Part shown: positions 6,335-54,316 of the stretch, one piece after another
Layout of the letters: every line of letters begins with the position of its first letter
How positions within the stretch are numbered: position 1 is the first letter of the stretch
DNA from: Lacrimispora xylanolytica
Lineage (GTDB): Bacteria; Bacillota; Clostridia; Lachnospirales; Lachnospiraceae
Reading direction: 5' to 3'
NCBI RefSeq assembly: GCF_026723765.1
Contig: NZ_CP113524.1
Coordinates: 744,001 to 808,000 of the forward strand
Length of the DNA stretch: 64,000 nucleotides
Program-made: the position numbers and the translations under genes
The notes under the pieces: model-generated
Told to the model about the DNA's origin: nothing
What the model saw: only the letters and a program-made list of their open reading frames with translations
The model's database searches: none

Positions 6335-6340
6335 AAAGCC

Positions 6341-6419: not shown

Positions 6420-7670
6420 ATGGTAAATGAAGTAATGAAGTTTATTACCGGCTACGATAAGGAAGTCGGAGAAGCCATTGAAAAAGAGTGCGCGCGTCAG
6501 AGAAGAAATTTAGAACTGATCGCATCGGAAAATATTGTTTCAGAACCGGTCATGATGGCAATGGGCTCCGTACTTACGAATAAATATGCCGAAGGTTATC
6601 CTGGAAAACGTTATTACGGCGGCTGTGAGGAAGTGGATGTGGTTGAGACCATCGCCATAGAGCGTGCCAAAAAGCTGTTTGGATGCGACTATGCCAATGT
6701 TCAGCCTCACTCCGGCGCACAGGCCAATATGGCTGTCTTCCTTGCCATGCTTCAGGCAGGCGATACCGTTATGGGTATGAACTTAAACCACGGCGGTCAT
6801 CTGACTCATGGAAGCCCTGTAAATTTCTCTGGTCTTTATTTCAATATTGTTCCTTATGGAGTCAATGATGATGGCTTTTTAGATTATGATGAGATGGAGC
6901 GGCTTGCCATGGAGCATAAGCCGAAATTAATCGTAGCTGGTGCCAGTGCTTACGGAAGAGTCATTGATTTTAAACGATTCCGTGAGGTTGCAGATAAGGT
7001 TGGCGCTTACTTGATGGTGGATATGGCTCATATTGCCGGACTTGTGGCGGCAGGACTTCATCCTAGCCCAATTCCATATGCAGATGTAGTGACTACCACA
7101 ACGCATAAGACTCTTCGCGGACCGAGAGGCGGACTTATTCTTGCAAATCAGGAGGCTGCGGACAAGTTTAACTTTAACAAAGCTATTTTCCCAGGCATTC
7201 AGGGCGGACCGTTAGAGCACGTGATCGCTGGTAAGGCAGTTTGCTTTGGCGAGGCTTTAAAACCTGAATTTAAAACGTATCAGGAGCAGGTGGTTAAGAA
7301 TGCTAAGGCTCTTGCAGCAGCTCTTATTAAACAGGGATTCCATATTCTTACAGAGGGAACGGACAATCATCTTATGCTTATCGACTTAAGAGGTATGGAA
7401 GTGACCGGTAAAGAGCTTCAGAACCGCTGTGACGAGGTCTATCTGACCTTAAATAAGAACTCTGTACCAAATGATCCAAGAAGCCCGTTTGTCACCTCCG
7501 GTGTGAGAATCGGAACCCCGGCTGTTACTTCCAGAGGCTTAAAGGAAGAGGACATGGAAAAGATTGCAGAATGCATCTGGCTGGTTGCTACAGATTTTGA
7601 AAATAAGGCTGATTATATCAGAAGCGAAGTAACAAAAATCTGTGATAGATATCCTCTTTACGAATCTTAA
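6420..7670 (+). CDS. glyA: Serine hydroxymethyltransferase
   Basis: PLP enzyme interconverting serine and glycine with tetrahydrofolate, the main source of one-carbon units. The protein shows the SHMT signature blocks [30 protein letters not shown] and the PLP-lysine region [14 protein letters not shown]; length about 416 aa is standard. Two in-frame ATGs occur at 6414 and 6420. GAGGG at 6408-6412 leaves only one base before the first but seven before the second, so I prefer 6420. A consensus promoter precedes it and a long hairpin terminator follows. Confidence 0.96.
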
Positions 7671-40539: not shown

Positions 40540-41007
40540 TTATTCATCAAAGAATGCATCGTCGAATTGTTTCATCTCATCCGTTACTTCTATATCGGTA
40601 CGCTGGTGAGCGGCATTGACCTGTAAGTGGGCGCGGTCCCTTTGCGGGATTGGAGAAATCTTTGATTGTTCTTGTTCACAGCGGTTGTATTCCATTTGAA
40701 GGATAGTATCTACGGTATGTCTTCCTTTGTCATCGATGGAGCGGTATTTCAACAGATGTTCTTCTTCTGATTTTGTCATAAGAATTGGCTGATTCATATT
40801 GGTATCTTCACTCCAGCCCATGAGATATGCCGGGCTGCATTCTAGAATGCTTGCCATGTGAGCGATGACAGAGCGCTTAATGTTTTCCACCCGCCCGTTT
40901 TCGTATTTTGCAATAGCAGATTTTTGAAGTCCAAGTTTTTCGGCTAATTCTTCTTGAGTATATTTCATGATAAGTCTACGTTCTTTTATTCGTTCTGCCA
41001 TTCCCAT
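40540..41007 (-). CDS. XRE/CI-type repressor of the phage-tail element
   Basis: Protein of 155 aa with an N-terminal lambda-repressor-type helix-turn-helix (MKYTQEELAEKLGLQKSAIA, then KYENGRVENIKRSVIAHMAS) and a non-catalytic, polar C-terminal half ending in FDDAFFDE. No LexA-like autoprotease site (Ala-Gly with Ser/Lys dyad) is visible, so induction by RecA-stimulated self-cleavage is not apparent. AGAGG lies before the ATG. Divergent promoters and repeated GTGTCTT operators upstream make it the likely switch repressor of the tail genes. Confidence 0.85.
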   Translation of the reverse strand: MGMAERIKERRLIMKYTQEELAEKLGLQKSAIAKYENGRVENIKRSVIAHMASILECSPAYLMGWSEDTNMNQPILMTKSEEEHLLKYRSIDDKGRHTVDTILQMEYNRCEQEQSKISPIPQRDRAHLQVNAAHQRTDIEVTDEMKQFDDAFFDE

Positions 41008-41035
41008 GACTTTTATACCTCTCTTTTCACTTGTT

Positions 41036-41052
41036 GTGTCTTAATTTTACTA
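41036..41052. promoter_or_regulatory. Operator O1 (GTGTCTT half-site)
   Basis: GTGTCTTAATTTTACTA; the left arm matches the four-copy repeat, the right arm is degenerate. It overlaps the -10 of the repressor's promoter, so suits autorepression. Confidence 0.6.
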
Positions 41053-41072
41053 TATTATTAGAGGATATGCAA
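41044..41072 (-). promoter_or_regulatory. Repressor promoter
   Basis: Minus strand TTGCAT (41072-41067), 17-bp spacer, TAAAAT (41049-41044), giving a start about 30 bp before the repressor's ATG. Confidence 0.65.
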
Positions 41073-41087
41073 GGGATTATGATAAAA

Positions 41088-41104
41088 GTGTCTTAAAATT
41101 CATA
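41088..41104. promoter_or_regulatory. Operator O2
   Basis: GTGTCTTAAAATTCATA; first ten bases match the repeat, right arm degenerate. It lies just upstream of the -35 of the rightward promoter. Confidence 0.55.
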
Positions 41105-41111
41105 TTCGTGA

Positions 41112-41140
41112 TTGACAGAGGAAGAGATACGTGATATATT
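41112..41140 (+). promoter_or_regulatory. Rightward promoter of the phage-tail element
   Basis: TTGACA (41112-41117), 17-bp spacer, TATATT (41135-41140), flanked by operators O2 and O3. Nearly 700 bases of AT-rich leader separate it from the first gene. Confidence 0.7.
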
Positions 41141-41144
41141 TTAA

Positions 41145-41161
41145 GTGTCTTAAAAAGATAC
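41145..41161. promoter_or_regulatory. Operator O3
   Basis: GTGTCTT-AAA-AAGATAC, palindromic at 6 of 7 positions per arm. It covers the predicted start point of the rightward promoter, where a bound repressor would block transcription. Confidence 0.7.
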
Positions 41162-41450
41162 AATAGTTTTGGTTTAAATTATTATATTGTACGATGCGTG
41201 AGGAGGGTATATGGGGATATTGTATTGATAAGCTGATGGTGTGTTTATGGGGGAGGGTATTTTGTTAGATACCTGTTTACTTTGAAAAGTATTAGGATTT
41301 TAAAATCTAAGAATTGAATAATTAAAAATTTTAAGTATCAAATCGTTAGATGAACATATACAAAATCTGATTTTATTAGTGGTGAAATGATTGGCTTTAG
41401 AGTCGAGTGAAATAAGATATAGATTATAAGCAATTTTTTTTACAATAAAT

Positions 41451-41467
41451 GTGTCTTAAAAAGACTC
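41451..41467. promoter_or_regulatory. Operator O4 with possible second promoter
   Basis: GTGTCTT-AAA-AAGACTC, palindromic at 6 of 7 positions. A -10-like TACAAT lies at 41441-41446 directly before it, without a good -35. This suggests a second controlled start about 300 bp downstream of the first. Confidence 0.6.
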
Positions 41468-41528
41468 TAAAATAGCATGAGGTTTATATTCATAGATAGT
41501 AAGTATGAAATGCATTATTCATTTGACT

Positions 41529-41591
41529 GGGAAGGGTTTATATTTCCCGATAAAAGGGAGGAGCCGACAAGATTGGGGGATCCTGTCGGCT
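41529..41591 (+). other. Two hairpins in the long leader of the tail element
   Basis: GGGAA/TTCCC (about 41529-41548) and the perfect 8-bp stem AGCCGACA/TGTCGGCT (41562-41591). Neither is followed by a proper T-tract, so they look like leader structure. The rest of 41162-41828 is AT-rich without a convincing gene. Confidence 0.45.
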
Positions 41592-41828
41592 GAGTATGAA
41601 AAAAAGTTTATTTAAATGCTGTCTCTTTACATTTACTAATATACTGGGAAATTGTGACGGTATTTTGATGAAACTGTGAAGAGTCTGTGAAAGTATTAAG
41701 CAACGTTGAAAATTAAGTATTGGTACTTGGTATTTTATTGTCCAAAGCAGAGTGGCGATACAATTGTTGGTAAATAAATTGAGGTTAATAAGAGCTTTTG
41801 AAAGAGATGTCAGTTGTGGAGGGAAGGG

Positions 41829-41996
41829 ATGGAAAAGGTTAACTTTTGTGATGTTAAAAAGAAATGCATGTATTGTGGGAAATCGTATCCTTCCAATTCA
41901 CTTAAAAAGAATTGCTCGTGTAAGGATCATGGGAGATTATTTGCAGTAGGAAACTATTTTGAAAGAAAAGTAAAAGGAGGAATCAGCAATGAGTAA
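41829..41996 (+). CDS. Small cysteine-rich protein, first gene of the tail element
   Basis: Basic protein of 55 aa with five cysteines: one in NFCDVKKK, then C-x2-C (KKCMYCGKSYP) and C-x-C (NCSCKDH), with a nearby His. This looks like a small zinc finger. GGAGGGAAGGG immediately precedes the ATG at 41829. Its stop overlaps the next gene's start (ATGAGTAA), indicating coupled translation and supporting that it is real. A DNA- or RNA-binding regulatory role is a guess. Confidence 0.6.
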   Translation: MEKVNFCDVKKKCMYCGKSYPSNSLKKNCSCKDHGRLFAVGNYFERKVKGGISNE

Positions 41997-42303
41997 GGAA
42001 GTTAGAAAAATATATACCTTATATGACAATGGCTGCAAGATGGGGCAATACAGTGCATTAGAAGCATCAGCACTTTTAAAAATCCCCTGCGCGTCAATCT
42101 CATCTTATGCAAGCTCAGGGGCAAGGGCATTTGGCAGGTATACGTTTGAACCTATGGAATCTGTGGAGGTGCAGGACCCACTAGCAGTGGAATGGGATAA
42201 GGTTAGAAATGAAATTTTGGCAGCAGGGAGGTGTAAGCATGGATCAGGCAGTGGCAGAACAATTAGTAAAGTCAGCAGCACTGGAAGCGGTTCAGTTGTT
42301 TGA
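41989..42303 (+). CDS. Hypothetical protein with NUMOD1-like motif
   Basis: Protein of 104 aa. The segment YTLYDNGCKMGQYSALEASA, with LKIPCASISSYASSG after it and GRYTFEP, resembles the small DNA-binding NUMOD1-type modules of phage proteins. The last 20 residues are Ser/Gly-rich and are encoded in the 65-base overlap with the next gene, so they may be under constraint from that frame. AAAGGAGG before the ATG supports the start. Function unknown; an early regulator of the tail element by position. Confidence 0.55.
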   Translation: MSKEVRKIYTLYDNGCKMGQYSALEASALLKIPCASISSYASSGARAFGRYTFEPMESVEVQDPLAVEWDKVRNEILAAGRCKHGSGSGRTISKVSSTGSGSVV

Positions 42304-42736
42304 GAAGTCTCAGAAAAAATGCAGCAGGACAAAGGTTTTTCACAATGCCAAGAAACTGATGGAGAATTATAACCGGATACATCAGGGGATGATAGAGGGC
42401 ATCTCTGAACTATCATATTTGGATGACCGCAGCAGTTCTCAGAAATCCTCAGAAGAGGACATTTATATTAACAGTATCCTGAAAAGTAAGCTCCGAAGCA
42501 TCGTAATGATTGCACACCTGGATAAATGTATGAAGCTTTTAAAAGAAGAGCAGATAAGAAAAAATGCGCCGGAAAAGTTTGAGGCCTTTAAATTGTACTA
42601 TCTGGACAATGTGACTCAGGAGGAAATTGCTGAAATTCTACATAGTACAGACAGAACCATACGAAGATGGGTATCCGAAGCAACAGAAATACTGAGCGTT
42701 TACTTATTCGGAGCGGATGCCATTGTTCTTGAGTAG
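42239..42736 (+). CDS. Sigma-like/late-gene activator helix-turn-helix protein
   Basis: Protein of 165 aa. The C-terminal 60 residues (KFEAFKLYYLDNVTQEEIAE, then ILHSTDRTIRRWVSEATEIL) form a sigma-region-4-like helix-turn-helix, as in phage ArpU/RinA-type late activators. The N-terminal part is helical and charged. GGGAGG before the ATG at 42239 is preferred over the longer frame from 42209. It is the last gene before the structural genes, and an inverted repeat with a TATAAT lies directly behind it, which fits an activator turning on the tail operon. Confidence 0.7.
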   Translation: MDQAVAEQLVKSAALEAVQLFEKSQKKCSRTKVFHNAKKLMENYNRIHQGMIEGISELSYLDDRSSSQKSSEEDIYINSILKSKLRSIVMIAHLDKCMKLLKEEQIRKNAPEKFEAFKLYYLDNVTQEEIAEILHSTDRTIRRWVSEATEILSVYLFGADAIVLE

Positions 42737-42747
42737 GACATTTAATG

Positions 42748-42826
42748 CTTATCCAAATCGTGTCCTGTCTAAGACGATATAGCAGATTTATAATTGTATT
42801 ATTCCAGAAAGAAGAATCTGGATAAG
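42748..42826. promoter_or_regulatory. Inverted repeat and possible activator-dependent late promoter
   Basis: CTTATCCAAAT (42748-42758) and ATCTGGATAAG (42816-42826) are complementary at 10 of 11 positions. Between them lies TATAAT (42789-42794) with no recognisable -35. A good -10 without -35 flanked by symmetric sequence is the usual look of a phage late promoter that needs an activator. Confidence 0.45.
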
Positions 42827-42922
42827 TTTACAGAGGAGGACGTGGTGTGTGGATAACAGATATTGTTTACAGAGAATAAGTGATGGTGATTGGAGCTCCA
42901 TAGTAGGAAAGGAGGAGGTTAA

Positions 42923-43372
42923 ATGACATTTACGCTTGATAAATTAATAGAATCCATAGCTGAGGTTTTGAAAGAACATTTTCCCAATACTCAGGTATCT
43001 GTTAATCAGGATCAACAGGAGTCAGAAGCTTCTGAATTCTGTATTTTTTATACAGATGTTGAAATAGAAAGCCGTATTGGTAGTCGTCTTATGAAAAAGA
43101 TTGGCTTTGATGTGGTTTATAAGGCTGAAAAAAACAGTGGAGATACATTTGATCTGCGTCCGTCTGTTGCGGATAAGCTGGATTTCATACTTGAATTTAT
43201 TCCTTATGAAGCTGCTAAATTACGAACCTACAACCGGAGCTTTAAGATTGTAAATGGAGAGCTGCACTATGAGTTTACTGTTAAAGTCACTATGTCTTAT
43301 CAAAACGACACACCAATGATAGAATCCCTGGAATCTTATAGAGGAGGTGTAAATCAGAATGGCTTCAAATAA
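42923..43372 (+). CDS. Phage tail terminator-like protein
   Basis: Protein of 149 aa resembling the tail-terminator/neck family found directly before the sheath gene in PBSX-like tail modules (DUF6838 type). N-terminal LDKLIESIAEVLKEHFPNTQ, central beta-rich core, basic and polar. It would cap the tube and sheath when the tail reaches full length, needed even in headless particles. GGAGGAGG before the ATG. Overlaps the next small gene by 14 bases. Confidence 0.7.
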   Translation: MTFTLDKLIESIAEVLKEHFPNTQVSVNQDQQESEASEFCIFYTDVEIESRIGSRLMKKIGFDVVYKAEKNSGDTFDLRPSVADKLDFILEFIPYEAAKLRTYNRSFKIVNGELHYEFTVKVTMSYQNDTPMIESLESYRGGVNQNGFK

Positions 43373-43538
43373 AAAAGGAACAGTAAAGTATAAAACAGAA
43401 GCTCTCATCAGCAGTAAGGAATTTGATTCATATCAACAGGATTTTGCCAGGGCATTACTGCCTGAAGAGGAGTATACCGTGGAAGAAGCAAAAGAAATTT
43501 TAAATAGATTTTTCAACGATAAGATGGAGGAAAAATAA
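43359..43538 (+). CDS. Small tail-module protein
   Basis: Protein of 59 aa beginning MASNKKGTVKYKTEALIS, with a C-terminal helix EEYTVEEAKEILNRFF. GGAGG precedes the ATG by nine bases, and its stop abuts the sheath ATG (TAA-ATG), so it is tightly coupled on both sides. Small proteins of this type occur just before sheath genes in clostridial contractile tails. Function unknown. Confidence 0.7.
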   Translation: MASNKKGTVKYKTEALISSKEFDSYQQDFARALLPEEEYTVEEAKEILNRFFNDKMEEK

Positions 43539-44876
43539 ATGGCCGGAGGAAATTGGAGCAGTCAGAATAAAAAACAGCCTGGTGTATACATAAATGTTAA
43601 ATCAAATATGGAGCAGGCTGTCAGTGTGGGAAATAGAGGGATTGTAGCAATCTGTGAACCGTTGTCCTGGGGACCAGAGGGTGAGATTATGACCATTCAT
43701 GCGGGGGATGATTTAACGCCGTATATTGGATACGATTCCATTCATAGCAAGGCTCTGTTTTTAAGAGAGATTTTTAAAGGATCAGATCATACCAAGGGAC
43801 CAGTAAAAGTCTTACTTTATCGTCCCAATACGACCGGTGCCACAAAGGCATCTGCAGCTTTAGAGCCGCTTACAATTACAGCAAAATATAGCGGTATTAG
43901 AGGAAATGATATTTCTGTTTCTGTTATTGCTGATCCAGATGATGAAGGTAATTTTACCGTTCAGACGGTTGTTGATGGAATGGTGAAACATTCCCAGACA
44001 GGAAAGGTGGTTGCAGATTTAAAGGGAAATGACTGGGTTGTATTTGCCGGAACTGGTAAATTAGCAGCCAGTGCGGGGAAATATCTTGCAGGAGGTACCG
44101 ATGGAACTGTGAGCAATGCTTCTCATTCTGCTTTTCTTACCGCTTTGGAACCACTTAGTTTTAACATTGTAATTTATGATGGCTCCGATAGCACGGTACA
44201 GGCCGCGTATGTAGCTTTCATAAAACGTATGAGAGACAATCTTGGTAAAAAATGTCAGGCTGTTATGGCAGGTGCAGAAAGCAATACAGATGCCGTTATT
44301 TCAGTAAAGAATGGCGTGATTTTGTCTGATGGAACTATTCTTTCTCCACAGCAGGTAACCTGGTGGGTTGGTGGATCCCAGGCTGGTGCGAATTATAGTG
44401 AATCCCTGGTATATGCACAGTATCCGGATGCAGTAAATGTTTCACCTCGCTTGAGTACACAAGAAATTGATGAAGCTCTTAACAAAGGGCAGATTGTATT
44501 TTTTGAAGAGTTTGGCAGTGTAAAGGTGATGTCAGACATAAATACTTTGACCACATTCACTTCAGACAAGGGAGAGGCATTTTGTCTGAATCAGGTTATC
44601 CGAACACTGGATACCGTATCAAACGATATTTACAAGAATTTCTCACAGAATTACATTGGTAAAATTCAGAATAATGCTTCAGGCAGAGACCTTCTTAAGG
44701 CATGGATCGTAGGATATTTAAATGAGATTCAGGCAAATGGAGGAATTCAGAACTTTGTTGCAGATGATGTGGTTGTAGGGGCAGGCGAGGCAATCAATGC
44801 CGTTGTAATTACACTTGCAATTCAACCGGTGGCAGCTGTTGAAAAAATTTATATCACAGCAACCCTTACAGATTAA
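43539..44876 (+). CDS. Contractile tail sheath protein (XkdK-like)
   Basis: Sheath subunit, 445 aa, the contractile outer tube. The N-terminal KQPGVYINVKSN block and C-terminal handshake region (LAIQPVAAVEKIYITATLTD) are diagnostic of PBSX XkdK/phage sheath proteins; IPxVTWWVGG-like segment VTWWVGGSQAG and FTSDKGEAFCLNQVIRTLD also fit. The presence of sheath shows a contractile (myovirus/R-type) rather than flexible particle. GGAGG lies at the end of the preceding small gene. Confidence 0.93.
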   Translation: MAGGNWSSQNKKQPGVYINVKSNMEQAVSVGNRGIVAICEPLSWGPEGEIMTIHAGDDLTPYIGYDSIHSKALFLREIFKGSDHTKGPVKVLLYRPNTTGATKASAALEPLTITAKYSGIRGNDISVSVIADPDDEGNFTVQTVVDGMVKHSQTGKVVADLKGNDWVVFAGTGKLAASAGKYLAGGTDGTVSNASHSAFLTALEPLSFNIVIYDGSDSTVQAAYVAFIKRMRDNLGKKCQAVMAGAESNTDAVISVKNGVILSDGTILSPQQVTWWVGGSQAGANYSESLVYAQYPDAVNVSPRLSTQEIDEALNKGQIVFFEEFGSVKVMSDINTLTTFTSDKGEAFCLNQVIRTLDTVSNDIYKNFSQNYIGKIQNNASGRDLLKAWIVGYLNEIQANGGIQNFVADDVVVGAGEAINAVVITLAIQPVAAVEKIYITATLTD

Positions 44877-44889
44877 AAGGAGGTAGAGT

Positions 44890-45360
44890 ATGTCATTTTT
44901 ATTAGAGCGTGATGCGTTAAACGGAAAGGCTGGTCGTGCTTTTGCCGTGATTGATGGCCGTAACGTAGAAATGTTTGGCTTAAAGAAATTCCAGGCGGAT
45001 GCAGAATTTCAGGAATCAGATTTTAAGGTGGTAGGTACCAATCTTGTACAGAAAAAAACTTCTGGTGTGTCCCTTACCGGATCAGCAACTGTTTATTACG
45101 GAACACCGGAATTCTTAAATATGTTAAAGACTTATTTAAAGACAGGAAAGCTTCCGTACTTCACATTCCAGATCACAAATGAAGACGAAGGAAGCACCAT
45201 TGGGTCTCAGACAGTAGCTTTATATAACGTGAAGCTGCAGAAGCTTCCAATTGCTATTCTGGACGCGGATACAGAATTTTTAACCATGGATATTACATTT
45301 AGTTTCACAAATGTTGAAATCCTTAACGCATTTACAGCCCCGACTCAGTTGGGAGAATAG
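44890..45360 (+). CDS. Tail tube protein (XkdM-like)
   Basis: Inner tube subunit of 156 aa, matching the XkdM family: SFLLERDALNGKAGRAFAVI at the start, YYGTPEFLNMLKTYLKTGKL in the middle, and a beta-barrel pattern throughout. Always found directly after the sheath gene, as here (13-bp gap with AAGGAGG). Confidence 0.92.
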   Translation: MSFLLERDALNGKAGRAFAVIDGRNVEMFGLKKFQADAEFQESDFKVVGTNLVQKKTSGVSLTGSATVYYGTPEFLNMLKTYLKTGKLPYFTFQITNEDEGSTIGSQTVALYNVKLQKLPIAILDADTEFLTMDITFSFTNVEILNAFTAPTQLGE

Positions 45361-45368
45361 GAGAGATT

Positions 45369-45785
45369 ATGAGTGCATTAAAAGCATTTTTACAGCCAGT
45401 CATGGCAGGTGTAACCAAGGAAGTCGTTGTATCCAATCGTTTTAAAGATGAGGAAGGAAACGCAGTTCCATTTGTGATTAAAGCAATTACTCAGAAAGAA
45501 AATGAGAAACTGGCACGTATGAGCAGAAAAACAGTTAATGTCAATGGTTCACCTGTTGAGAAGCTGGATAACCTGCTGTATACAAAGAGACTCGTTCTTG
45601 CATGTGTTCAGGAACCAGATTTCAGCGCACAGGAAATGTGCAACTATTATGGAACAGAAGATCCTTTGGATGTGCCATCTCAGATGCTGAGTATCGGAGA
45701 GTATAATCGTCTGTCAGAAGCGATTCTGGAATTAAACGGAATGAAGGATGCGGAAGATAAGCTGGAAGAAGCAAAAAACTCTTAA
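45369..45785 (+). CDS. Tail assembly chaperone (XkdN-like), zero-frame product
   Basis: Protein of 138 aa of the XkdN group. It acts as a chaperone for the tape measure protein and is not part of the final tail. Location between tube and tape measure genes is diagnostic. The zero-frame form ends GAA-GCA-AAA-AAC-TCT-TAA; a slippery A-AAA-AAC just before the stop allows a longer frameshifted form that continues into the next small frame. Confidence 0.9.
   Translation: MSALKAFLQPVMAGVTKEVVVSNRFKDEEGNAVPFVIKAITQKENEKLARMSRKTVNVNGSPVEKLDNLLYTKRLVLACVQEPDFSAQEMCNYYGTEDPLDVPSQMLSIGEYNRLSEAILELNGMKDAEDKLEEAKNS
45773..45779 (+). promoter_or_regulatory. Programmed -1 frameshift site
   Basis: A-AAA-AAC heptamer in the exact phase X-XXY-YYZ, two codons before the chaperone stop. 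A -1 slip continues CTC-TTA-AAC-GGG-GGA-GAC-ATG, in phase with the small gene at 45797, and would give a protein of about 188 aa. This is the G/GT arrangement conserved in long-tailed phages. Confidence 0.8.
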
Positions 45786-45796
45786 ACGGGGGAGAC

Positions 45797-45934
45797 ATGG
45801 ACGTGCAGCTTGCTTACTATATGTTAGTTAACCACGGCCGCTTCCCCGGGGAGATTGCGGATCTTCCAGAAAAAGAAAAGATACTTATGTATCAGATGGC
45901 AGTCAAAGAAATTAAAAGTCGGCCCCAAAAGTAA
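45797..45934 (+). CDS. Frameshift extension of the tail chaperone (45 aa by its own start)
   Basis: Open frame of 45 residues beginning MDVQLAYYMLVNHGRFPGEI, between chaperone and tape measure genes. It may be made alone from ATG 45797 (GGGGGAG five bases upstream) and, more likely by analogy to lambda gpGT, as the C-terminal extension of the chaperone via the -1 frameshift. The T-like part usually binds the tail tube. Confidence 0.75.
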   Translation: MDVQLAYYMLVNHGRFPGEIADLPEKEKILMYQMAVKEIKSRPQK

Positions 45935-45943
45935 GGAGGAACC

Positions 45944-48184
45944 ATGGGAGAGATAAAAGAAAGCTTAGCAGTAAGTGATCAATTCAGCGAGTCTTTTTCC
46001 AAGTTCCTTGAGCTTGGGAATGCCGCTGTTAATCAGATGAAGCGTGTTGATCATGCAGTTGTGAAAACAGAGATGACCATGCGTCGGTCCATTGGAGGAG
46101 CGACTGGTGCTGTTATTGCAAATATAAGACAAATTGGAGAAACGTCCAACAAGTTCCTTGATCTTGGTAACTCTGCGGTAAAGCAGATGAAACGGATTGA
46201 TCAAACCATGACCAAAACGGATATGACCATGCGCAAATCGATTGGAGGAGCGACTGGTGCAGTCATTGGAAATATGAGAGAAATTGGACAAGCCTCTAAC
46301 AAAATCTCATCTTCTGGGTTTGATCGTATGGAAGCGCAGCTGATTAAAATTGCAGACAATACCTCAAAAGCAGCAACTGCCCAGGACAAACATAATAATA
46401 AGGTGAAAGAAACCAGTAAATCAGCAGTAGGCCTCTTTTCAACCTTGAAAAAAGTGGTGTCTGTAGCTTCTAACTTTAAGATGGGAAAAGAATTATTTAG
46501 CTTATCCGATCAAATGACACGTTCCACCGCCCGATTAAGTGTTATGAATCAAGGGTTTAATCCCCCCTCGATTGATGCAGGTGGTCAAGGAAATGATAAT
46601 ACAAATAGCAGTTTACAGGAAACAGAGCAGCTACAGGAAAAAATCTACCGGTCTGCACAAAGATCCAGAACCAGCTATCTTGATACGGCTGATGTTGTAG
46701 CCAAGCTGGGCCAAACTGCGGGAAACGCTTTTTCAGGAAGTGACGAGGTGGTTGCCGTTGCAGAAAACATAAGTAAACAGTTTAAGATGGCAGGAGCCAG
46801 TCAGGAGGAAATTGGTTCCGCTACCGAACAGCTTGGCCAGGCTATGGCAAAAGGCGTCATAAGTGGAGAAGAATTAAACACTGTTTTTAAAGGTGCTCCT
46901 AATGCGATACAGGCAATTGCAGATTATCTTGGTAAGCCGGTAGAAGAAATCAGTGGATTGGCGGATAAAGGTGTTATCACAGCTGACGTTGTAAAAAATG
47001 CCTTGTTAAGTGCTACGGATCAGATTAATGACCAGTTTAAAAACATGCCTATGACTTGGTCGGATTCCTGGAATCTGATTAAGAATGCTGGCATTCACTC
47101 TTTAGACGGTGTCCTGGATAAAATGAGTGAGTTCTTAAACAGTGATACCGGTAAGACGGTGATAGAGGGAATTATAGGTGCTGTTGAAATTCTTGGTGAT
47201 GTTGCTTCCGGCGCTGTTGATGTATTGGTTGCTGGAGCCAATGCGATTGTTGAAAATTGGGACTATATATATCCGATCTTATTAGGGGTCGGCTTGGCTT
47301 TGGCTGCAGCAGGGACGATCGGATTAGTGTCTGGCTTATTAACTGCATCAGGTTGGCTTGCGGCAGCAATGCCATTTATCCTCGTAGGACTGCTGATAGG
47401 AGCAGCAATTATGGGAATATTGCAAGCTGGTGTCACATTTGAGCAGATAGGAGAAAAAATTGGCTATGTGTTCGGCTTCATCTATGCCGTTGGATATAAC
47501 ATGGTTGCAGACTTGTGGAATTTAATCGCAATCTTTGCAGAATTTTTTGCCAATGTAATGAATGATCCGGCTTCCGCCATTGCTCATCTTTTATTTGGAT
47601 TATTTGATTCTATATTAAGTCAGATAGAAACCGTAGCAGATGCCATTGATGCTGTGTTTAAAACAAACATGGCTGATGGTGTAAAAGGCTTTAGGGAGAA
47701 GTTAAGTGAATGGGTCGATGACAAGTTTGGGGAACAAGCTATAACGATAGAACGCATGACTAAATTGGATACTGGGGATACCGCAGATGAATGGAGCAAA
47801 TATGGTGCTTCTCTTGGAAACAAAATAGATAACACAAACTTTAGTCTTGATAGCCTAATGGATAAAATGCCTTCTGCTGGCGCTGGCGGTCTGCTTGGAG
47901 GAGCTGGTGCTATAACGGGTGATATTGGCAATGTTGGCAAAGTTGGTAAGGTAGATAAGATTGAGCAGGATGTCAATATTTCTGATGAAAATATTAAACT
48001 CCTTAGAGATTTATCAGAACGCCAATACGTGGCTTTGGTAAACCTGACGGTTCCACAGACCAATGCGACTGTAAATCAAAACAATTACGGTGGAGGCGGC
48101 TCTGATATTGATGCTATGGTTAATGTGTTAAATAATGTGTTGGGAGTCCAGCACGCATCAAGCAGTAATGTTGTTACAGGATAG
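45944..48184 (+). CDS. Tail tape measure protein
   Basis: Length-determining protein, 746 aa. The tape measure domain spans about 200-370 (GVISGEELNTVFKGAPNAIQ and ITADVVKNALLSATDQINDQ), followed by several hydrophobic helices (about 440-500) expected to insert in the target membrane, and a Gly-rich C-terminus. The N-terminus holds two 50-residue tandem repeats. By the usual ruler rule the tail would be short to medium. AAGGAGG precedes the ATG. Confidence 0.92.
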   Translation: MGEIKESLAVSDQFSESFSKFLELGNAAVNQMKRVDHAVVKTEMTMRRSIGGATGAVIANIRQIGETSNKFLDLGNSAVKQMKRIDQTMTKTDMTMRKSIGGATGAVIGNMREIGQASNKISSSGFDRMEAQLIKIADNTSKAATAQDKHNNKVKETSKSAVGLFSTLKKVVSVASNFKMGKELFSLSDQMTRSTARLSVMNQGFNPPSIDAGGQGNDNTNSSLQETEQLQEKIYRSAQRSRTSYLDTADVVAKLGQTAGNAFSGSDEVVAVAENISKQFKMAGASQEEIGSATEQLGQAMAKGVISGEELNTVFKGAPNAIQAIADYLGKPVEEISGLADKGVITADVVKNALLSATDQINDQFKNMPMTWSDSWNLIKNAGIHSLDGVLDKMSEFLNSDTGKTVIEGIIGAVEILGDVASGAVDVLVAGANAIVENWDYIYPILLGVGLALAAAGTIGLVSGLLTASGWLAAAMPFILVGLLIGAAIMGILQAGVTFEQIGEKIGYVFGFIYAVGYNMVADLWNLIAIFAEFFANVMNDPASAIAHLLFGLFDSILSQIETVADAIDAVFKTNMADGVKGFREKLSEWVDDKFGEQAITIERMTKLDTGDTADEWSKYGASLGNKIDNTNFSLDSLMDKMPSAGAGGLLGGAGAITGDIGNVGKVGKVDKIEQDVNISDENIKLLRDLSERQYVALVNLTVPQTNATVNQNNYGGGGSDIDAMVNVLNNVLGVQHASSSNVVTG
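46004..46303 (+). repeat. Two tandem 150-bp repeats in the tape measure gene
   Basis: Units 46004-46153 and 46154-46303, each coding 50 residues: FLELGNAAVNQMKRVD... and FLDLGNSAVKQMKRID..., sharing SIGGATGAVI. The DNA match is also high, so this is a recent in-frame duplication; unit number would change tail length. Confidence 0.85.
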
Positions 48185-48192
48185 GAGGTATC

Positions 48193-48918
48193 ATGCGAAA
48201 TAAGTATAAATTTTTTGCAGATATCGGTGGCGATACAATTGAATTTCCAGTTAACCCGAAAGAATATACAATTTCTTATCCAGCGGATCATAAGACGTAC
48301 GATATTTTAGATATTGGGGAAATTGTTGTTCCCAGGCTGCCCTCCTTAATGGAGGTGTCCTGGGAATCCTATTTCCCTGGTGATAGCGATGATCCACTTA
48401 TGTGCGGGCACGACTGGACCGAACCAGGTGATCTCGTGGAGGCAATACTGGATGCCCGGGATAACAAGGAAGTATGTGATATTGTAATCAGCCGGTACGA
48501 TGCAAGGGGAAGCCGCATGTATGATACAAACATCAGTGCGGTAATTGACAGCTTTGAGACAACAGAAAAAGGTGGGGAAGCTGGAGATATCTATTATAAA
48601 ATCAAGTTTAAAGAATATCGGAACTACGCGCCAATCAGGATAACACTTCCTCCGGCAGAACAACCGGCAAATGGTACTACTCAACCAGAAGATCAGGAAC
48701 GTTCTACATCTGCTGTTCCAGAACTTAGAGTAGGTGCTTCCGTTATTGCAAATGGTACATATTTTAGCAGCAGTTATGGAGATAAACCAACTGGAACCGC
48801 CAACAATTTGGCGACTACCGTTTCGAGAATCGTTCCTGATGCTTCCAGGGCCTATCCCATATTAATAGGCGGCAGTCGTGGCTGGGTGAAAGCAGATCAA
48901 TTGCAGGTGACAGGATGA
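48193..48918 (+). CDS. Baseplate adaptor, LysM/XkdP-like
   Basis: Protein of 241 aa matching the PBSX XkdP position and N-terminal pattern (GDTIEFPVNPKEYTISYPAD, WESYFPGD). The family contains a LysM domain; here the C-terminal 60 residues look more like an SH3-type domain (SVIANGTYFSSSYGDKPTGT, SRGWVKADQLQV). It probably connects tube and central hub. AGGAGG precedes the ATG, and the stop overlaps the hub gene's ATG. Confidence 0.85.
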   Translation: MRNKYKFFADIGGDTIEFPVNPKEYTISYPADHKTYDILDIGEIVVPRLPSLMEVSWESYFPGDSDDPLMCGHDWTEPGDLVEAILDARDNKEVCDIVISRYDARGSRMYDTNISAVIDSFETTEKGGEAGDIYYKIKFKEYRNYAPIRITLPPAEQPANGTTQPEDQERSTSAVPELRVGASVIANGTYFSSSYGDKPTGTANNLATTVSRIVPDASRAYPILIGGSRGWVKADQLQVTG

Positions 48919-49910
48919 GCTACAAACTTTTAATTTATAATGACGAGTCATATTCCTTGTACGATTATGCCCCCATTACACAGAAGGTAACTTATACCAC
49001 AAACAGAGGTGGAAGTGCAGGCAAGCTTACATTTACGTTTCTTCAGGATAAGCCAATTAATCTGACAGAGGGTGCTAAAGTACTATTTTATGTTGATGGA
49101 AAAGAAATTTTTCTGGGATTCGTTTTTATTATAGAACAGAGTCGCTCTGGCGAGGTTTCAGTCACCGCCTATGACCAGCTCCGTTATTTAAAAGCGAAAT
49201 CCAGTTATAGTTTCAACAATAAAAAGCTGGGAGAAATAATAAGTCAGATTGCAGGCGATATGCAGCTTCAAGTAGGAGAAATAGAAGATACCGGACAAGG
49301 GATCCCCTATCTGACAAAGGAAAATACAGAGTGCCTGGATATTATTGAATACGCTCTCATGGTAACTCAGAACAGTACTGGCAAAACATTTGTCTTTTAT
49401 GATGATTTTGGTAAGCTGTCTCTAAAAGAGGCTAAGAATATGATGTCTGATGTATTAATTGGCAATGGCAGCATCATTACAGACTATTCTTATAAGTCTG
49501 ATATAGATTCAGACACTTATAATCAGGTAAAGCTGGTCCGGTCCAATAAAGAGACGGGCCAGGGAGATACCTATATATTCAATGACCATTCAACAATTAA
49601 AAAATGGGGACTCCTGCAGAAGTATGACAAAGTAGATGATAATCTTAACGAAGCACAAATCAATGAGCAGGGAAATATGATGATGGCGTATTATGACCGA
49701 GTGCTAAAAACGTTATCCGTGAGTGGTTTAGGGGGAGTACCAGGGCTCAGAGCAGGAGCAATGGCAAAGTTTAAAATAAAGGAAATACCAGAACTCTCCA
49801 ATGGATATTATTTGCTTCTGGATAAAGTGAATCATACTTTTTCAGACGGAGAGCATACCATGAGCGTCGATGCAAAAATCATCAATAAGGAGGGCCAATG
49901 GAACTCATAG
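48915..49910 (+). CDS. Tail hub protein (XkdQ/gpD-like)
   Basis: Protein of 331 aa, homologue of PBSX XkdQ and the phage late-control gene D family, forming the central hub under the tube. Segments YAPITQKVTYTTNRGGSAGKL and TENTECLDIIEYALMVTQN fit the family. No lysozyme domain is fused. ATGA overlap with the upstream gene and a 13-base overlap with the next. Confidence 0.85.
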   Translation: MSYKLLIYNDESYSLYDYAPITQKVTYTTNRGGSAGKLTFTFLQDKPINLTEGAKVLFYVDGKEIFLGFVFIIEQSRSGEVSVTAYDQLRYLKAKSSYSFNNKKLGEIISQIAGDMQLQVGEIEDTGQGIPYLTKENTECLDIIEYALMVTQNSTGKTFVFYDDFGKLSLKEAKNMMSDVLIGNGSIITDYSYKSDIDSDTYNQVKLVRSNKETGQGDTYIFNDHSTIKKWGLLQKYDKVDDNLNEAQINEQGNMMMAYYDRVLKTLSVSGLGGVPGLRAGAMAKFKIKEIPELSNGYYLLLDKVNHTFSDGEHTMSVDAKIINKEGQWNS

Positions 49911-50191
49911 AGCGACTTAAGTATATTATTAGTGATACTGTAAAAGCCATGGATCTTTTGGATACTGGTTACGCTACAGTCGTATCAGCAGCTCCATTAA
50001 CATTAAAAATTCAGGCGACTCAATTGATAGTGACGGAGCCAGTGGCTGTTCTAACCGATAATTTAAAATACAGAGATATCAATATACAGGGAGAGAAGAT
50101 TGTGTTAAACCCAGGCGTTAAACCAGGAGACAAGGTTCTGGTATTGAAAGCCAATGCCGGACAGAATTATATCGTAATGTCGAAAGTGTAG
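49898..50191 (+). CDS. Baseplate protein, DUF2577 (XkdR-like)
   Basis: Small protein of 97 aa with OB-like beta pattern (LDTGYATVVSAAPLTLKIQA), in the invariant order hub, DUF2577, DUF2634, baseplate J. Likely the spike-proximal part. Overlaps the hub gene; GGAGG before the ATG. Confidence 0.85.
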   Translation: MELIERLKYIISDTVKAMDLLDTGYATVVSAAPLTLKIQATQLIVTEPVAVLTDNLKYRDINIQGEKIVLNPGVKPGDKVLVLKANAGQNYIVMSKV

Positions 50192-50199
50192 GTGATACG

Positions 50200-50604
50200 A
50201 TGGCAACATTACCAAAATCAGCTAGTGCAGTTATTTATGAAAATGAGAACAGGGAGTACCCTACCGAAACTTATCTGGTGGATAAAAGTACCGGTACAAT
50301 TAAAAAAGTAGGCGGTGGATTGGAAGCCATGAAACAGGCTATAGAAATCATTCTAGCTACGGAAAGATATCAAAACCAGATCTATACGTCGAATTTTGGC
50401 AGGGAATTAAAAAGGCTAATTGGTAAGCCCCCGGAATATGTAGCAAGTATGATAAAAAGACGTATTCAAGAGGCTTTTTCTTCTGATAAACGAATTCTTT
50501 CAGTGAACGATTTTTTATTTGATACCTCAGACCAAGGGACATTAAAATGCACATTTGAGGTTAAAACCGTATATGGAAATATCCCCGGGGAGGTGGAAAT
50601 TTGA
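50200..50604 (+). CDS. Baseplate wedge, DUF2634/gp25-like (XkdS-like)
   Basis: Protein of 134 aa of the gp25-type wedge family: KQAIEIILATERYQNQIYTS carries the conserved helix and the EILATERY block typical of XkdS/DUF2634. Overlaps the next gene by four bases. Part of the baseplate that triggers sheath contraction. Confidence 0.88.
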   Translation: MATLPKSASAVIYENENREYPTETYLVDKSTGTIKKVGGGLEAMKQAIEIILATERYQNQIYTSNFGRELKRLIGKPPEYVASMIKRRIQEAFSSDKRILSVNDFLFDTSDQGTLKCTFEVKTVYGNIPGEVEI

Positions 50605-51749
50605 TTGATTTTAGTAACAAAACATACGCGAATATATTGGCATCACAGTTAAAAAGGGTACCAGATACCATTGATAAAAGGGAAGGCTCCATGATCCAGA
50701 CGGCGCTTGGACCGGAAAGCTGGCATCTGGAAGGGTTATATCTTGACTTGGATTCTGTGCAGAAAAATGCTTATGCGGAAACGGCTGGAGGCAATTGGCT
50801 TAATATGCTGGTAGCAGAGCGTGGAATAGAAAGAAAAGCAGCTACTAAGGCAGTTAAAAAAGGTTATTTTAATATAGATGTGCCAATTGGCTCCCGATTT
50901 TCAGCTCTTACAGGGAGTGGATATTTAACATATAAGGTGTCGGATTTTATTGACCATTCTGAGAATGGATATAGTTATCGAATGGAATGCGAATCTCCAG
51001 GTGAGATTGGTAATAATTATTCTGGTCAGTTGGTTGCCATTGATTATGTGACTGGTCTTACATCTGCACAGCTTACAGAGCTTCTTTCAGCCGGAACAGA
51101 GGAAGAAGGAGATTCTTCCCTGAGAGAGCGGTATTTAGCTACCTTTGACGTTGCCACGTTTGGAGGAAACATTGCTTCCTACCGAAATGCAATTCTTGCG
51201 ATTGATGGAGTTGGAGCCGTTCAAATCTACCCGGCCTGGCAGGGAGGAGGAACTGTGTTGTGCAGTATTCTTGACGGAAATTATAAGCCGGCGGGGAATA
51301 CTCTTATTACTAAGGTACAAAATGCGATTTGCCCTCTGGAAGGAGATGATTTAGAACCATCCCCCAATGGTTATGGAATGGCCCCTATTGGAGCAGCCGT
51401 TACCATTGGAACTGGTAAAGAACTGAAGCTTGATTTTTCTCTCACCGTTCAATTTTTATCCAGTATTCAAAACGGAGAGACAGCCTATAAAAACCAGATT
51501 ATGGACAAGATAGAAGAATACTTAGAATCTGTTCGGCAATCCTGGGGTACCGTGCTGAAAAGTCAAAAGCTAGAGTATGCAGTGATAGTCTATGTGTCCA
51601 GGGTGATATACGCAATTCTAACTATTCCTGAAGTTGTCAATGTGACGGATGTAACTATTAATGGAATCGCATCTGATGTAGTGTGCGTAGAGACTTCTAC
51701 TGAGCAGCAGGTGCCAGTTTTGGGGGCGGTGACAATCAATGGCGGTTGA
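50601..51749 (+). CDS. Baseplate J-like protein (XkdT-like)
   Basis: Wedge protein of 382 aa, gpJ/gp6 family. The conserved central block GTEEEGDSSLRERYLATFDV and GGNIASYRNAILAIDGVGAV is diagnostic. Start is TTG at 50601, overlapping the preceding stop, with GGGGAGGTGG just upstream. Confidence 0.92.
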   Translation: MIDFSNKTYANILASQLKRVPDTIDKREGSMIQTALGPESWHLEGLYLDLDSVQKNAYAETAGGNWLNMLVAERGIERKAATKAVKKGYFNIDVPIGSRFSALTGSGYLTYKVSDFIDHSENGYSYRMECESPGEIGNNYSGQLVAIDYVTGLTSAQLTELLSAGTEEEGDSSLRERYLATFDVATFGGNIASYRNAILAIDGVGAVQIYPAWQGGGTVLCSILDGNYKPAGNTLITKVQNAICPLEGDDLEPSPNGYGMAPIGAAVTIGTGKELKLDFSLTVQFLSSIQNGETAYKNQIMDKIEEYLESVRQSWGTVLKSQKLEYAVIVYVSRVIYAILTIPEVVNVTDVTINGIASDVVCVETSTEQQVPVLGAVTINGG

Positions 51750-52260
51750 TCTAAAAATGCTGCTACCGGAGTGGTTTAAAAATATTCTGGAATTCAACCA
51801 GCTCTTGGATACAGAAGAGGTGGAGCTGGAAGCAGTGGAAGACAGTATTCGGTCTGTTCGAGATAATTGCTTTATACAGACGGCTGATGAGAATACGATT
51901 CTTCTTTACGAGAAGCGCTTTGGAATTTCTTATCAGGGAGAAACGTTAGAATACAGAAGAAGTAGAATCCTGCAAAGATATAATACGGTAGTTCCATTTA
52001 CAATCGGATTTCTTAAAAATCGTTTGTCAGAACTTTTTGGAGCAGATGGGTATGTTTTGTCAGTGAATAGCAAAACTTATTTGCTGACAATTAAGGTTAC
52101 ATCTGATCGGTACGGTGCATTGAATCTCCTTTATGACCTGCTGTGGGATATAATTCCGGCCCATATTAAGATCCTGGCAAGCCAGGAAGTGAAAAAGGAT
52201 ATGAAAGGCGGTTATTACATAGGGACTACGGTGAGCAGCACGAAAATAACAACAATTTAA
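51739..52260 (+). CDS. Baseplate/tail protein, YmfQ/DUF2313 (XkdU-like)
   Basis: Protein of 173 aa; LEYRRSRILQRYNTVVPFTI is the family landmark of the gpI-like DUF2313 group that links baseplate and fibres. Overlaps the J gene by 11 bases. Standard length. Confidence 0.87.
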   Translation: MAVDLKMLLPEWFKNILEFNQLLDTEEVELEAVEDSIRSVRDNCFIQTADENTILLYEKRFGISYQGETLEYRRSRILQRYNTVVPFTIGFLKNRLSELFGADGYVLSVNSKTYLLTIKVTSDRYGALNLLYDLLWDIIPAHIKILASQEVKKDMKGGYYIGTTVSSTKITTI

Positions 52261-52269
52261 GGAGGTAAA

Positions 52270-53877
52270 ATGGGACAGTATAACAAAGCGATTATAACGG
52301 CAGCAGGAGAAAATTTGATTGCCAGAGCGGTTGCAGGAGAACTGAAATTAAACATAACCAAAGCAAAAATTTCGAATCATAGGTATCCAGATGGGACTGA
52401 CTATAAAGCGCTAACTGATATGGATGGGGTTAAGCAGATTTTAGAATATCCTGAAACGAAAGTATTAGATAATAATATGATTCAGACGAGAGTGCTTTTT
52501 AGCAATGAAGAAATTCAGGTTGCTTATTACATACAAAATATTGGTCTATATGCTAAAGATGGTGAAGAAGAGATTCTATTTTGTATTGTAACTGCAGTGA
52601 TACCGGATGAAATGCCTAAGTATAATGGTGTGGCTTCTACTTCGTATATCTATAATATTCAGAATGTAGTACAGGATGCGGCTGAAATTAATATTGAAGT
52701 TGTCCCTTCTGGGACGGCTACGATTCAGGATGTGATGGAAAGGGTGGATGCCACGGGTGGAGATATTTCAGAGACTGTGATTGAAACACTGGAGATGATT
52801 GATGCAAAGTATCCGGTTCCGGAGGTTGGGGATTCAACAAAGGTTTTTATGGGGAAAGTTAAAAAGTATATTAAGGATACGAAGCCACTTAATAATGATA
52901 TGTTTGTGTACGTAGATAATAATGGTTCTGATATCACTGGTGATGGTACAAGCTCTAATCCTTATAAGACGATAAAAAGCGCGTTAAATAATATTCCAAA
53001 GGATTTAGGCGGTCATAGTGCAACTGTCAGGATAGCCGATGGTACCTATAATGAGGCTGTTAATATATCTAATTTTCATAGTGGAATGCTTCATATTACA
53101 CGCGCTAATAATTGGGAATCTTTAAATATCTCGTGTAATATAGATACTATTACCTGTATAAGTTCAACTGCTAGAATAATAATAGCAGGAATCAATTTTA
53201 CACAAACAAGTAATCATTCTTTCATAGGAATTGATTGTTCCAATCTAGTATTATGGTATTGCCAAGCATTAGGTGACAGTCAGTATGCTGGCTTTCATTT
53301 TGAATCTTGTAATGCTAGAATAGATGCCTGCAGGGTAAATAATAAAAAGTGGGGTGTAATTGCAAGTTACTTTTGTAGAATACACTCTGCAAGTTGGTAT
53401 ATTGGGTCAGCTGCTACAGATAATGGAATTGCATCACTCAGTGGTTCTACTGTTACCCTAATGGGAAATCAGCCTACCGGGGCATGGCAATTTTATTCAG
53501 AATATGGTGGGGTGTTTTTACAGCAAAATGGCACTCAAATATCTAATCTAACTATTTCTGGTTTATATTGTCCATGGGGAAATATTAATAGTGGGTATTA
53601 TAGAAATGGAAATATTAATGGACCCTCCCAAATTAATATTCAGACAAATATTACAACTACAGTAACTTTGAATGCAAATAAACCATATTTAATTGCCGGT
53701 TACCCACTGAGGCGAGATCAATTTGATACGGTAGTCCACACTGCCATACCGTCCAGAACACTTTTATGTTTTCTTAGAAATACTAGCACATATAGTGAGA
53801 TTTACTTCACGTCGTTAGTTGATTTACCTGCAGGCTCAAATTTACTATTTAGTGGAACATACACAACAAATTCATGA
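52270..53877 (+). CDS. Tail fibre / receptor-binding protein with beta-helix domain
   Basis: Protein of 535 aa. The N-terminal 150 residues (GQYNKAIITAAGENLIARAV, VAYYIQNIGLYAKDG) are the phage tail-collar-fibre domain that attaches to the baseplate. From about residue 215 the sequence turns into a pectate-lyase-like repeat pattern (VYVDNNGSDITGDGTSSNPY, KTIKSALNNIP, GGHSATVRIADGTYNEAV), typical of parallel beta-helix receptor-binding or depolymerase domains. The 3' half is visibly more AT-rich than the upstream genes. No fibre chaperone or holin follows; a terminator does. Confidence 0.85.
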   Translation: MGQYNKAIITAAGENLIARAVAGELKLNITKAKISNHRYPDGTDYKALTDMDGVKQILEYPETKVLDNNMIQTRVLFSNEEIQVAYYIQNIGLYAKDGEEEILFCIVTAVIPDEMPKYNGVASTSYIYNIQNVVQDAAEINIEVVPSGTATIQDVMERVDATGGDISETVIETLEMIDAKYPVPEVGDSTKVFMGKVKKYIKDTKPLNNDMFVYVDNNGSDITGDGTSSNPYKTIKSALNNIPKDLGGHSATVRIADGTYNEAVNISNFHSGMLHITRANNWESLNISCNIDTITCISSTARIIIAGINFTQTSNHSFIGIDCSNLVLWYCQALGDSQYAGFHFESCNARIDACRVNNKKWGVIASYFCRIHSASWYIGSAATDNGIASLSGSTVTLMGNQPTGAWQFYSEYGGVFLQQNGTQISNLTISGLYCPWGNINSGYYRNGNINGPSQINIQTNITTTVTLNANKPYLIAGYPLRRDQFDTVVHTAIPSRTLLCFLRNTSTYSEIYFTSLVDLPAGSNLLFSGTYTTNS

Positions 53878-53911
53878 GATAAATTTTAGTAAAATTAAAA
53901 TATAATAAATA

Positions 53912-53951
53912 AAAGACCGACTATTGTCTGTTTCAAATAGTGGGTCTTTTA
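53912..53951 (+). terminator. Terminator of the tail operon
   Basis: AAAAGACC-g-ACTATT pairs with AATAGT-g-GGTCTTTT (one internal G-G mismatch), T-rich on both sides. It marks the right end of the tail element and can also serve the convergent csbD gene. Confidence 0.8.
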
Positions 53952-54295: not shown

Positions 54296-54316
54296 ATGTC
54301 TTACCAATAAAGACAC
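54296..54316. repeat. Inverted repeat carrying GTGTCTT-like arms
   Basis: ATGTCTT-N7-AAGACAC lies between csbD and glsB. The arms match the half-site of the tail-element operators, but the spacer is seven bases instead of three. Could be a decayed or unrelated site. Confidence 0.3.

Follow-up and report, generated by a model that had tools for sequence, protein, structure and literature searches.

Element A, a cluster of contractile phage-tail genes at positions 40540-53951 of a 64,000-nucleotide stretch of the Lacrimispora xylanolytica chromosome (the window, bases 744001-808000 of a one-contig 4.52 Mb genome), is on balance best read as a prophage-derived tail element whose lysis genes were lost since a resident protease-plus-lysis locus gives it both induction and lysis in trans. 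That locus, TC2, is a second headless tail cluster on the same chromosome (997586-1012856), about 200 kb from A. The descent of A from a prophage with eroded lysis genes is very probable, and judging from the sequences, co-regulation of A and TC2 by the protease is fairly probable, as is lysis of A in trans. The evidence consists of the gene content, the orthologues at the same site, the erosion of the lysis genes, the purifying selection on the tail, a shared repressor tail and a single detected protease, all of them read from sequence. In the simplest account, the lysis genes of A decayed because they were redundant beside the TC2 locus.

According to the proposed mechanism, the tail module of A would come from a kind of prophage still found in relatives, its head block being lost and its lysis cassette disappearing piecewise, with the tail genes held by purifying selection. 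Upon DNA damage or a similar signal, the chromosome's one ImmA/IrrE-type protease, encoded in TC2, would act and cleave in trans all repressors ending in AAHxRTDIxVTxEM...DDAFFDE, that of A among them; each element would keep its own operator, the C-terminal tail being common. A and TC2 would be induced together, and the holin and amidase of TC2, or the lysis genes of the co-resident prophage, would lyse the cell and set free the two kinds of tail, which carry different fibres. Cleavage, co-induction, particle assembly, release and killing are predicted steps in this scheme.

Repressor tails, the protease and the lysis loci

TC2 encodes an ImmA-type protease (PF06114, E 4.1e-08), a repressor of 160 amino acids (aa), tail genes recognised by BLAST to those of A (37% identity for baseplate J), a holin (PF05105, E 1.2e-34) and an amidase (PF01510, E 8.2e-28). 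The last 24 residues of the A and TC2 repressors, hereafter the C-tail, are 75% identical, compared with 33% for the bodies. The motif is carried by the repressors of all three elements of this genome, the third being a prophage (about 84.7 kb to at least 123 kb) with integrase, terminase, portal, capsid, holin and endolysin families. A single match to PF06114 was obtained in the genome, a search with the TC2 protease returned the same one, and neither search found a second ImmA-type protease. The shared motif and the one detected protease make a common induction of the three elements likely. The original prediction, made from the window alone, had called the release of the particle unexplained and advised searching the genome for an unlinked holin or endolysin; this search supplied candidates, namely the TC2 holin and amidase about 200 kb away, accompanied by the protease, and the lysis genes of the prophage.

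The C-tail was followed through 25 genomes of the genus, several of them drafts or metagenome-assembled genomes (MAGs), by using a DNA pattern for its last six residues and the stop codon. This pattern occurred at 37 places in 24 of the 25 genomes and its reversed form at one; the repressor open reading frame (ORF) was read at 35 of the 37. Since the repressors were gathered by their last six residues, likeness at those positions exists by construction; upstream of them, however, 21 distinct tails all agree in H, R, D, V, T, M and D, and the A-TC2 likeness had been noticed before the pattern was built. Chance was rejected as the origin of the C-tail, given the reversed-pattern control and the constancy of residues that were not part of the search pattern. 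Pairwise comparison of ten representative repressors gave a mean identity of 80% over the last 24 residues and 36% over the bodies, the tail exceeding the body in 45 of 45 pairs, and the C-tail codons show 380 synonymous differences in 861 comparisons at identical residues.

An ImmA gene adjoins 24 of the 37 places: 22 were counted in 3 kb stretches with a short metal-binding motif, backed by the positions from the protease searches, and those searches supplied the other two. A pair of the 24, at the two ends of one G014 contig, may represent a single locus. All 24 ImmA-linked places have a holin at a distance of no more than 20 kb, and none of the 13 ImmA-less ones has. The latter comprise five at site A (the chromosomal place of element A), four at a second place, site B, and four others: the prophage of this genome, G010 C25 and G020 C137 (both prophage-like by eye) and G016 C55. 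The G014 repressor, protease and holin stand at both ends of a 5.3 Mb contig (C1, 2270 and 5283188), by an untrimmed circular overlap or a duplication.

The C-tail could instead serve these repressors generally as a degron (for ClpXP, say) or in dimerisation, and would then be uninformative about ImmA. Its position at the very C-terminus and the 13 of 37 carriers with no adjoining ImmA would suit this explanation, which nonetheless appears unlikely: the 24 ImmA-linked carriers adjoin one ImmA subfamily (at least 73% identity to the TC2 protease), repressors paired with other proteases have different tails, and beyond the genus the pattern was found in 3 of 292 genomes, never at the end of an ORF of at least 40 aa. 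Five repressors beside TC2-like proteases (about 50-57% identical) end in AAH...EEMEEIM..V.FVKSRRKK instead, close by eye to the Listeria sequence TIAAHIDxxxxEExxxxILAYIE, and around 16 of the 21 other PF06114 matches in the genus set no ORF shown ends in DAFFDE. PF06114 alone misses proteases; the search with the TC2 protease added those of G002, G015, G013 and G011 and broken pieces in G001. By eye, the C-tail of the A and TC2 repressors also resembles the cleavage region of the substrates of MpaR, a Listeria protease discussed below. A protease beside the repressor, the mark of an ImmR/ImmA switch, is present at TC2 and absent at A, and the A repressor shares its motif with a protease-linked repressor, as expected of a dependant.

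Within the genus, a protease-linked repressor of the TC2 kind with a holin at no more than 20 kb was found in 23 of the 25 genomes. G015 has no such repressor, and in G016 the tailocin contig starts downstream of the expected repressor and protease genes, yet shows a holin and an amidase. Tail genes are present at the protease-linked locus in all five genomes inspected (this one, G002, G003, G006 and G009; in G009 the repressor lies outside the stretch inspected). The idea that all 24 protease-linked loci are tailocins was dropped, as tail genes were inspected in those five genomes only, and as no tail gene intervenes in G008 and G020 C92 between the repressor and a holin about 1.3 kb or less behind it. 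At the chromosomal site of TC2, beside the same S20-like gene (by eye), G003 (C4, 460000-485000) encodes a protease 75% and an amidase 82% identical to those of TC2 around a tail module mostly without BLAST similarity to it, which is a module exchange within a fixed frame of control and lysis.

A wider proposal, for which the chances are about even, is that of one resident protease-plus-lysis hub. Its ImmA would recognise the repressors of unlinked elements by a tag at their C-terminus, and these elements would also be served by its lysis genes; tail-only dependants would have arisen at least twice (A and B) with loss of holin and endolysin, so that one switch and one lysis would fire two tail types, and in two genomes the hub itself would have dropped its tail genes but still encode protease and holin.

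Four holins of family PF05105 (Phage_holin_4_1) were found on the whole chromosome and none in the window, other holin families not being searched genome-wide. Behind the prophage, at about 128620-129950, a second holin precedes an amidase-like gene in two ORFs (77 and 198 aa) that looks broken. At 1087751-1088809, outside any tail cluster and among neighbours that are agr-like by eye, a 179-aa ORF, sigma-like by eye and with no Pfam match, is followed by a holin (PF05105, E 4.1e-27).

Erosion of the lysis genes and selection on the tail

Element A is not an artefact, as a genome of the same species (Clostridium sp. 12(A), G041) carries it at the same place with genes 97-100% identical. The site-A allele of L. 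algidixylanolytica (G007) has a different repressor (39%), a tube 99% and a baseplate J 84% identical. For the site-A contigs from IMG/VR the right flank was matched and the left flank not seen; L122 is identical to G007 and L135 to G016, and L135 was not given a count of its own. From these sequences, intermediate steps in the loss of the lysis genes are visible at site A: a holin without endolysin, a frameshifted holin, a holin ghost and nothing. L119 encodes a 123-aa holin (PF05105, E 6.9e-20), about 19 N-terminal residues short of its nearest relative, and has no endolysin before csbD; in L125 the holin is frameshifted; L120 and L121 keep a C-terminal holin piece beside a Mutator-family transposase (PF00872); G007 keeps a C-terminal holin ghost and a post-fibre gene with a premature stop. 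In G021 (L056) and G011 (L057) the repressor and late regulator persist with the tail genes gone, and in G011 a holin ghost remains although the tail is lost.

Ghosts were looked for in 12 sequences of site A or site B, of which three were empty sites, and were present in three; none was seen in the window, G041, G021, G003, G016 or G023. Chance was rejected as their origin, the best single high-scoring segment pairs reaching 35.4, 38.9 and 47.4 bits and the highest score among 300 shuffled versions of these three regions being 26.6; the regions were chosen because they had matches. G001, G015 and G008 have nothing tail-like between the AraC and galactosidase-like genes. At site A of G014 (L064, about 6073-7261, reversed strand) there is no tail gene, and the phage amidase pieces found there could, but need not, derive from an A-like element. 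In L120 (9639-10892) and L121 (14218-15471) the transposase separates the holin fragment from the csbD-like gene.

A related headless, lysis-less tail element occupies site B in G003 and G023 (both L. xylanisolvens), G018 (L. defluvii) and G016 (MAG SIG286), and the site is empty in G004, G017, G019 and G005. Holin fragments stand behind the fibre in G018. Type B (L035, L036, L038) gave no tail terminator match, though its other tail genes are under purifying selection. The same tail module lies behind capsid genes, with a holin and an endolysin-like gene downstream, in G022 and G005; the G019 contig begins inside the module and shows lysis genes. In a tail-gene tree (20 rows, one without sheath; six genes; ultrafast bootstrap; recombination not modelled), A groups with the prophages G022 and L126 and B stands apart, which favours separate origins of A and B, with a weak rooting (outgroup branch above 3, one split at 66).

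Selection was assessed by the ratio of nonsynonymous to synonymous rates (dN/dS) over 12 tail genes, with G000 denoting the present genome and G023 excluded (its host genes are frameshifted too). The seven pairs at site A span 0.098-0.126: 0.106 (G000-G041), 0.098 (G000-G007), 0.108, 0.114 and 0.112 (G007 with L119, L121 and L125), 0.113 (L121-L125) and 0.126 (L119-L125). At site B the values are 0.106 (G003-G018), 0.196 (G003-G016), 0.207 (G018-G016) and 0.131 (G003-L133). Flank values range from 0.026 to 0.225 at A (80-162 codons; zero differences in G000-G041) and from 0.122 to 0.163 at B. The tail genes of A are under purifying selection, with dN/dS of about 0.1. Between G000 and G007 the fibre, the repressor, the tail terminator and two small genes are the most diverged; in the B pairs it is the fibre.

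On these grounds it is rather unlikely that A is an ordinary decaying prophage remnant, losing its lysis genes first and its tail genes next, from which nothing is made or released. Such decay would agree with the two of five site-A genomes (G021 and G011) that retain only the repressor and regulators, with lysis remnants rotting at both sites and with the premature stop in G007. In the sequences from site A (six) and site B (four distinct ones), however, the tail ORFs span 90% or more of their homologues, except the diverged fibre and the 59-aa gene, and the ratio at A is near 0.1. The endolysin is missing from both L121 and L125 and their holins are broken in different ways, yet the tail ratio between them is 0.113 at a tail dS of 0.203, equal to the flank dS of 0.200 (80 flank codons only). 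The possibility that the element is a deletion remnant with broken tail genes, raised by the original prediction as a refutation, was half right: the element did arise by deletion, but with its tail genes unbroken.

Several observations nevertheless weigh against the dependence of A on TC2. The AAH of the A repressor lies at residues 132-134 of 155, whereas MpaR cuts its substrate at residue 74/75, behind the helix-turn-helix (HTH), according to the available text of PMC6872733; a cut so near the end need not inactivate the repressor. The operators of A and TC2 differ. Of the five site-A genomes in which the repressor is found, two no longer have tail genes; the tail can therefore be dispensed with, and the C-tail of the repressor may serve another role. 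At site B, G016 has no protease match, its tailocin contig beginning downstream of the expected gene, and two B pairs have tail ratios (0.196 and 0.207) above those of the flanks (0.122 and 0.143). Tail dS relative to flank dS varies from 0.37 to 1.83 across pairs; in some of them, from such comparisons, tail genes were likely imported by recombination; phages may have been the source, and part of the low dN/dS may date from the phage stage.

Gene content and control region of element A

Element A is almost certainly a headless, contractile tail cluster with no lysis genes, no integrase and unbroken tail genes. Its 17 assigned genes were compared with PHROGs and 16 of them, all except the 59-aa one, with Pfam; neither search included the overlapping mechanical ORFs or a 45-aa ORF that follows the chaperone. 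The features, in window coordinates, are as follows.

40540-41007, minus strand: Xre/HTH_3 repressor, 155 aa (PF01381, E 3.4e-11)
40540-40614, minus strand: shared C-tail codons AAHQRTDIEVTDEMKQFDDAFFDE and stop; proposed ImmA recognition/cleavage region, by eye comparison with the MpaR region (PMC6872733)
41036-41467, plus strand: operator region; GTGTCTT at 41036, 41088, 41145 and 41451; dyads 41145-41161 and 41451-41467
41829-41996, plus strand: small Cys-rich protein, 55 aa, zinc-ribbon-like by eye (weak phrog_23499, E 0.0017)
41989-42303, plus strand: phage protein, 104 aa (phrog_25231, E 2.3e-16)
42242-42736, plus strand: sigma-70 region 4-like regulator (best match phrog_1558, E 1e-41)
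42923-43372, plus strand: tail terminator (PF20765, E 2.9e-13)
43359-43538, plus strand: 59-aa protein (phrog_966)
43539-44876, plus strand: tail sheath (PF04984, E 3.9e-32; phrog_279, E 4e-124)
44890-45360, plus strand: tail tube (PF09393, E 7.2e-31)
45369-45785, plus strand: XkdN-like tail assembly chaperone (PF08890, E 2.6e-30)
45944-48184, plus strand: tape measure protein (PF20155, E 7.9e-42; phrog_1068)
48193-48918, plus strand: tail protein that we take to be XkdP-like (phrog_380; no Pfam match)
48915-49910, plus strand: hub, YqbQ-like (PF24032, E 3.1e-104)
49898-50191, plus strand: DUF2577 (PF10844, E 1.7e-09)
50200-50604, plus strand: sheath initiator (PF10934, E 1.2e-23)
50601-51749, plus strand: baseplate J (PF04865, E 8.2e-48)
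51739-52260, plus strand: Mu gp48-like baseplate protein (PF10076, E 2.7e-21)
52270-53877, plus strand: tail fibre, among the most diverged genes between relatives (phrog_7037, E 4e-31)
53878-53951, plus strand: terminator-like stretch (by eye), where relatives have a post-fibre gene and a holin or holin ghost

The flanks are host genes by Pfam, an AraC regulator on the left and CsbD-like and Transgly_assoc proteins on the right, and further right lies a large ORF that is beta-galactosidase-like by eye. The extent and contents of the cluster as first described were confirmed by both family collections: it has the complete contractile tail gene set of an R-type tailocin and, among the genes compared, no capsid, portal or terminase. 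The predicted lack of terminase, portal, capsid, integrase, holin and endolysin likewise stood, with exceptions in name only. No portal, capsid, integrase or holin match was obtained among the genes of A in either comparison, and none of the 17 convincingly matched a family for the head, for packaging, for integration or for catalytic lysis. A weak match to a terminase small subunit family covers the HTH of the sigma-like regulator (phrog_1889, E 0.0037). The "endolysin" label of phrog_380 was rejected as a sign of a lysis gene, the window protein having no Pfam match at all. Pfam found no protease domain in the repressor. The integrase, packaging and head genes of a prophage are thus missing from A, as is a lysis cassette of its own, which is usual but not universal in R-type tailocins.

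An AAA+ ATPase is the defining feature of extracellular contractile injection systems (eCIS) such as the Afp/PVC-like ones, and no Pfam match to it was found among the 16 genes of A. It is very improbable that the particle acts inside the cell or from the membrane, lysis being no part of its life: some eCIS loci do have no lysis cassette, according to the available text of PMC10598620, but the genes of A are phage-like, with no ATPase or membrane component among their Pfam matches, and its same-site relatives have a holin or holin remains.

In the control region, four of the window's 11 copies of GTGTCTT/AAGACAC stand between the repressor and the regulators. The dyad GTGTCTTNNNAAGACAC, with at most one mismatch, occurs at three places in the genome, namely 41145, 41451 and a stray one inside an ORF at 4435269, versus one place for the reversed dyad. 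No GTGTCTT was found in the control region of TC2, two half-sites falling within its hub and amidase genes, and a genome-wide search showed no such dyad at the lysis cassettes of TC2 or the prophage. A shared operator was accordingly rejected as the link between A and TC2. The original prediction had allowed for a lysis cassette under the same operator or in the same regulon; the operator half of this did not hold, and the regulon half finds backing in the shared repressor motif and the one protease. Upstream of the csbD-like gene, at window positions 54298-54316, an inverted repeat TGTCTTACCAATAAAGACA resembles the GTGTCTT operator with a longer spacer.

Self-induction of A, with release by host autolysins or chance death and no link to TC2, would fit an operator of its own and the absence of any protease or lysis gene in cis. 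This explanation is quite improbable, as it leaves unexplained the shared repressor tail and the absence of the C-tail in G015, which also has no TC2-kind protease-linked repressor.

Comparison with known systems

PBSX carries head and lysis genes. PBSX- and skin-named Pfam and PHROG families match along the tail of A, which differs in having neither head nor lysis genes; the comparison with PBSX itself is one of gene layout. The diffocin of Clostridioides difficile is, like A, a headless R-type tail cluster of a clostridium (PMC4453579, PMC6088184). The premise of the original prediction that diffocins carry their own lysis cassette is doubtful, since a figure legend of PMC4453579 suggests none in that cluster either. 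Other phage-tail loci that have no lysis cassette are on record, and PMC10598620 describes their regulation as unclear. Among the literature matches listed, in which subscription journals are thinly covered, none described a Lacrimispora tail element devoid of lysis genes or an unlinked tailocin for which lysis is provided in trans.

The closest parallel to the proposed role of TC2 is the Listeria monocin. In the available text of Argov et al. (PMC6872733), its ImmA-like protease MpaR, encoded by the tailocin, de-represses co-resident prophages and cuts a prophage repressor between A74 and H75 in the TIAAHID-type sequence given above, and prophages with no protease depend on it. Both cases have a resident locus with repressor, protease and lysis genes, one protease for several elements, a motif including AAH shared by the repressors of the protease-less elements, and reduced loci that keep the protease (here in G008 and G020 C92). 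In Listeria, however, the tailocin is F-type, its dependants are whole prophages whose lysis modules are redundant, and the cleavage is demonstrated, whereas here one dependant would be a headless contractile tail without lysis genes and the cleavage is inferred.

Pseudomonas chlororaphis provides the other half of the comparison, as two different tails share one lysis cassette (PMC12090994, available text); there both tails lie in one cluster, whereas A and TC2 are about 200 kb apart under different operators. Argov et al. had noted that where two elements are regulated together and their lysis modules are redundant, a single module could in principle serve both. Such sharing seems to have evolved in Lacrimispora, with the intermediates of loss still visible at one chromosomal site. 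Element A is in this respect a combination of known kinds, the coordination known from MpaR and the single lysis cassette shared between tailocins.

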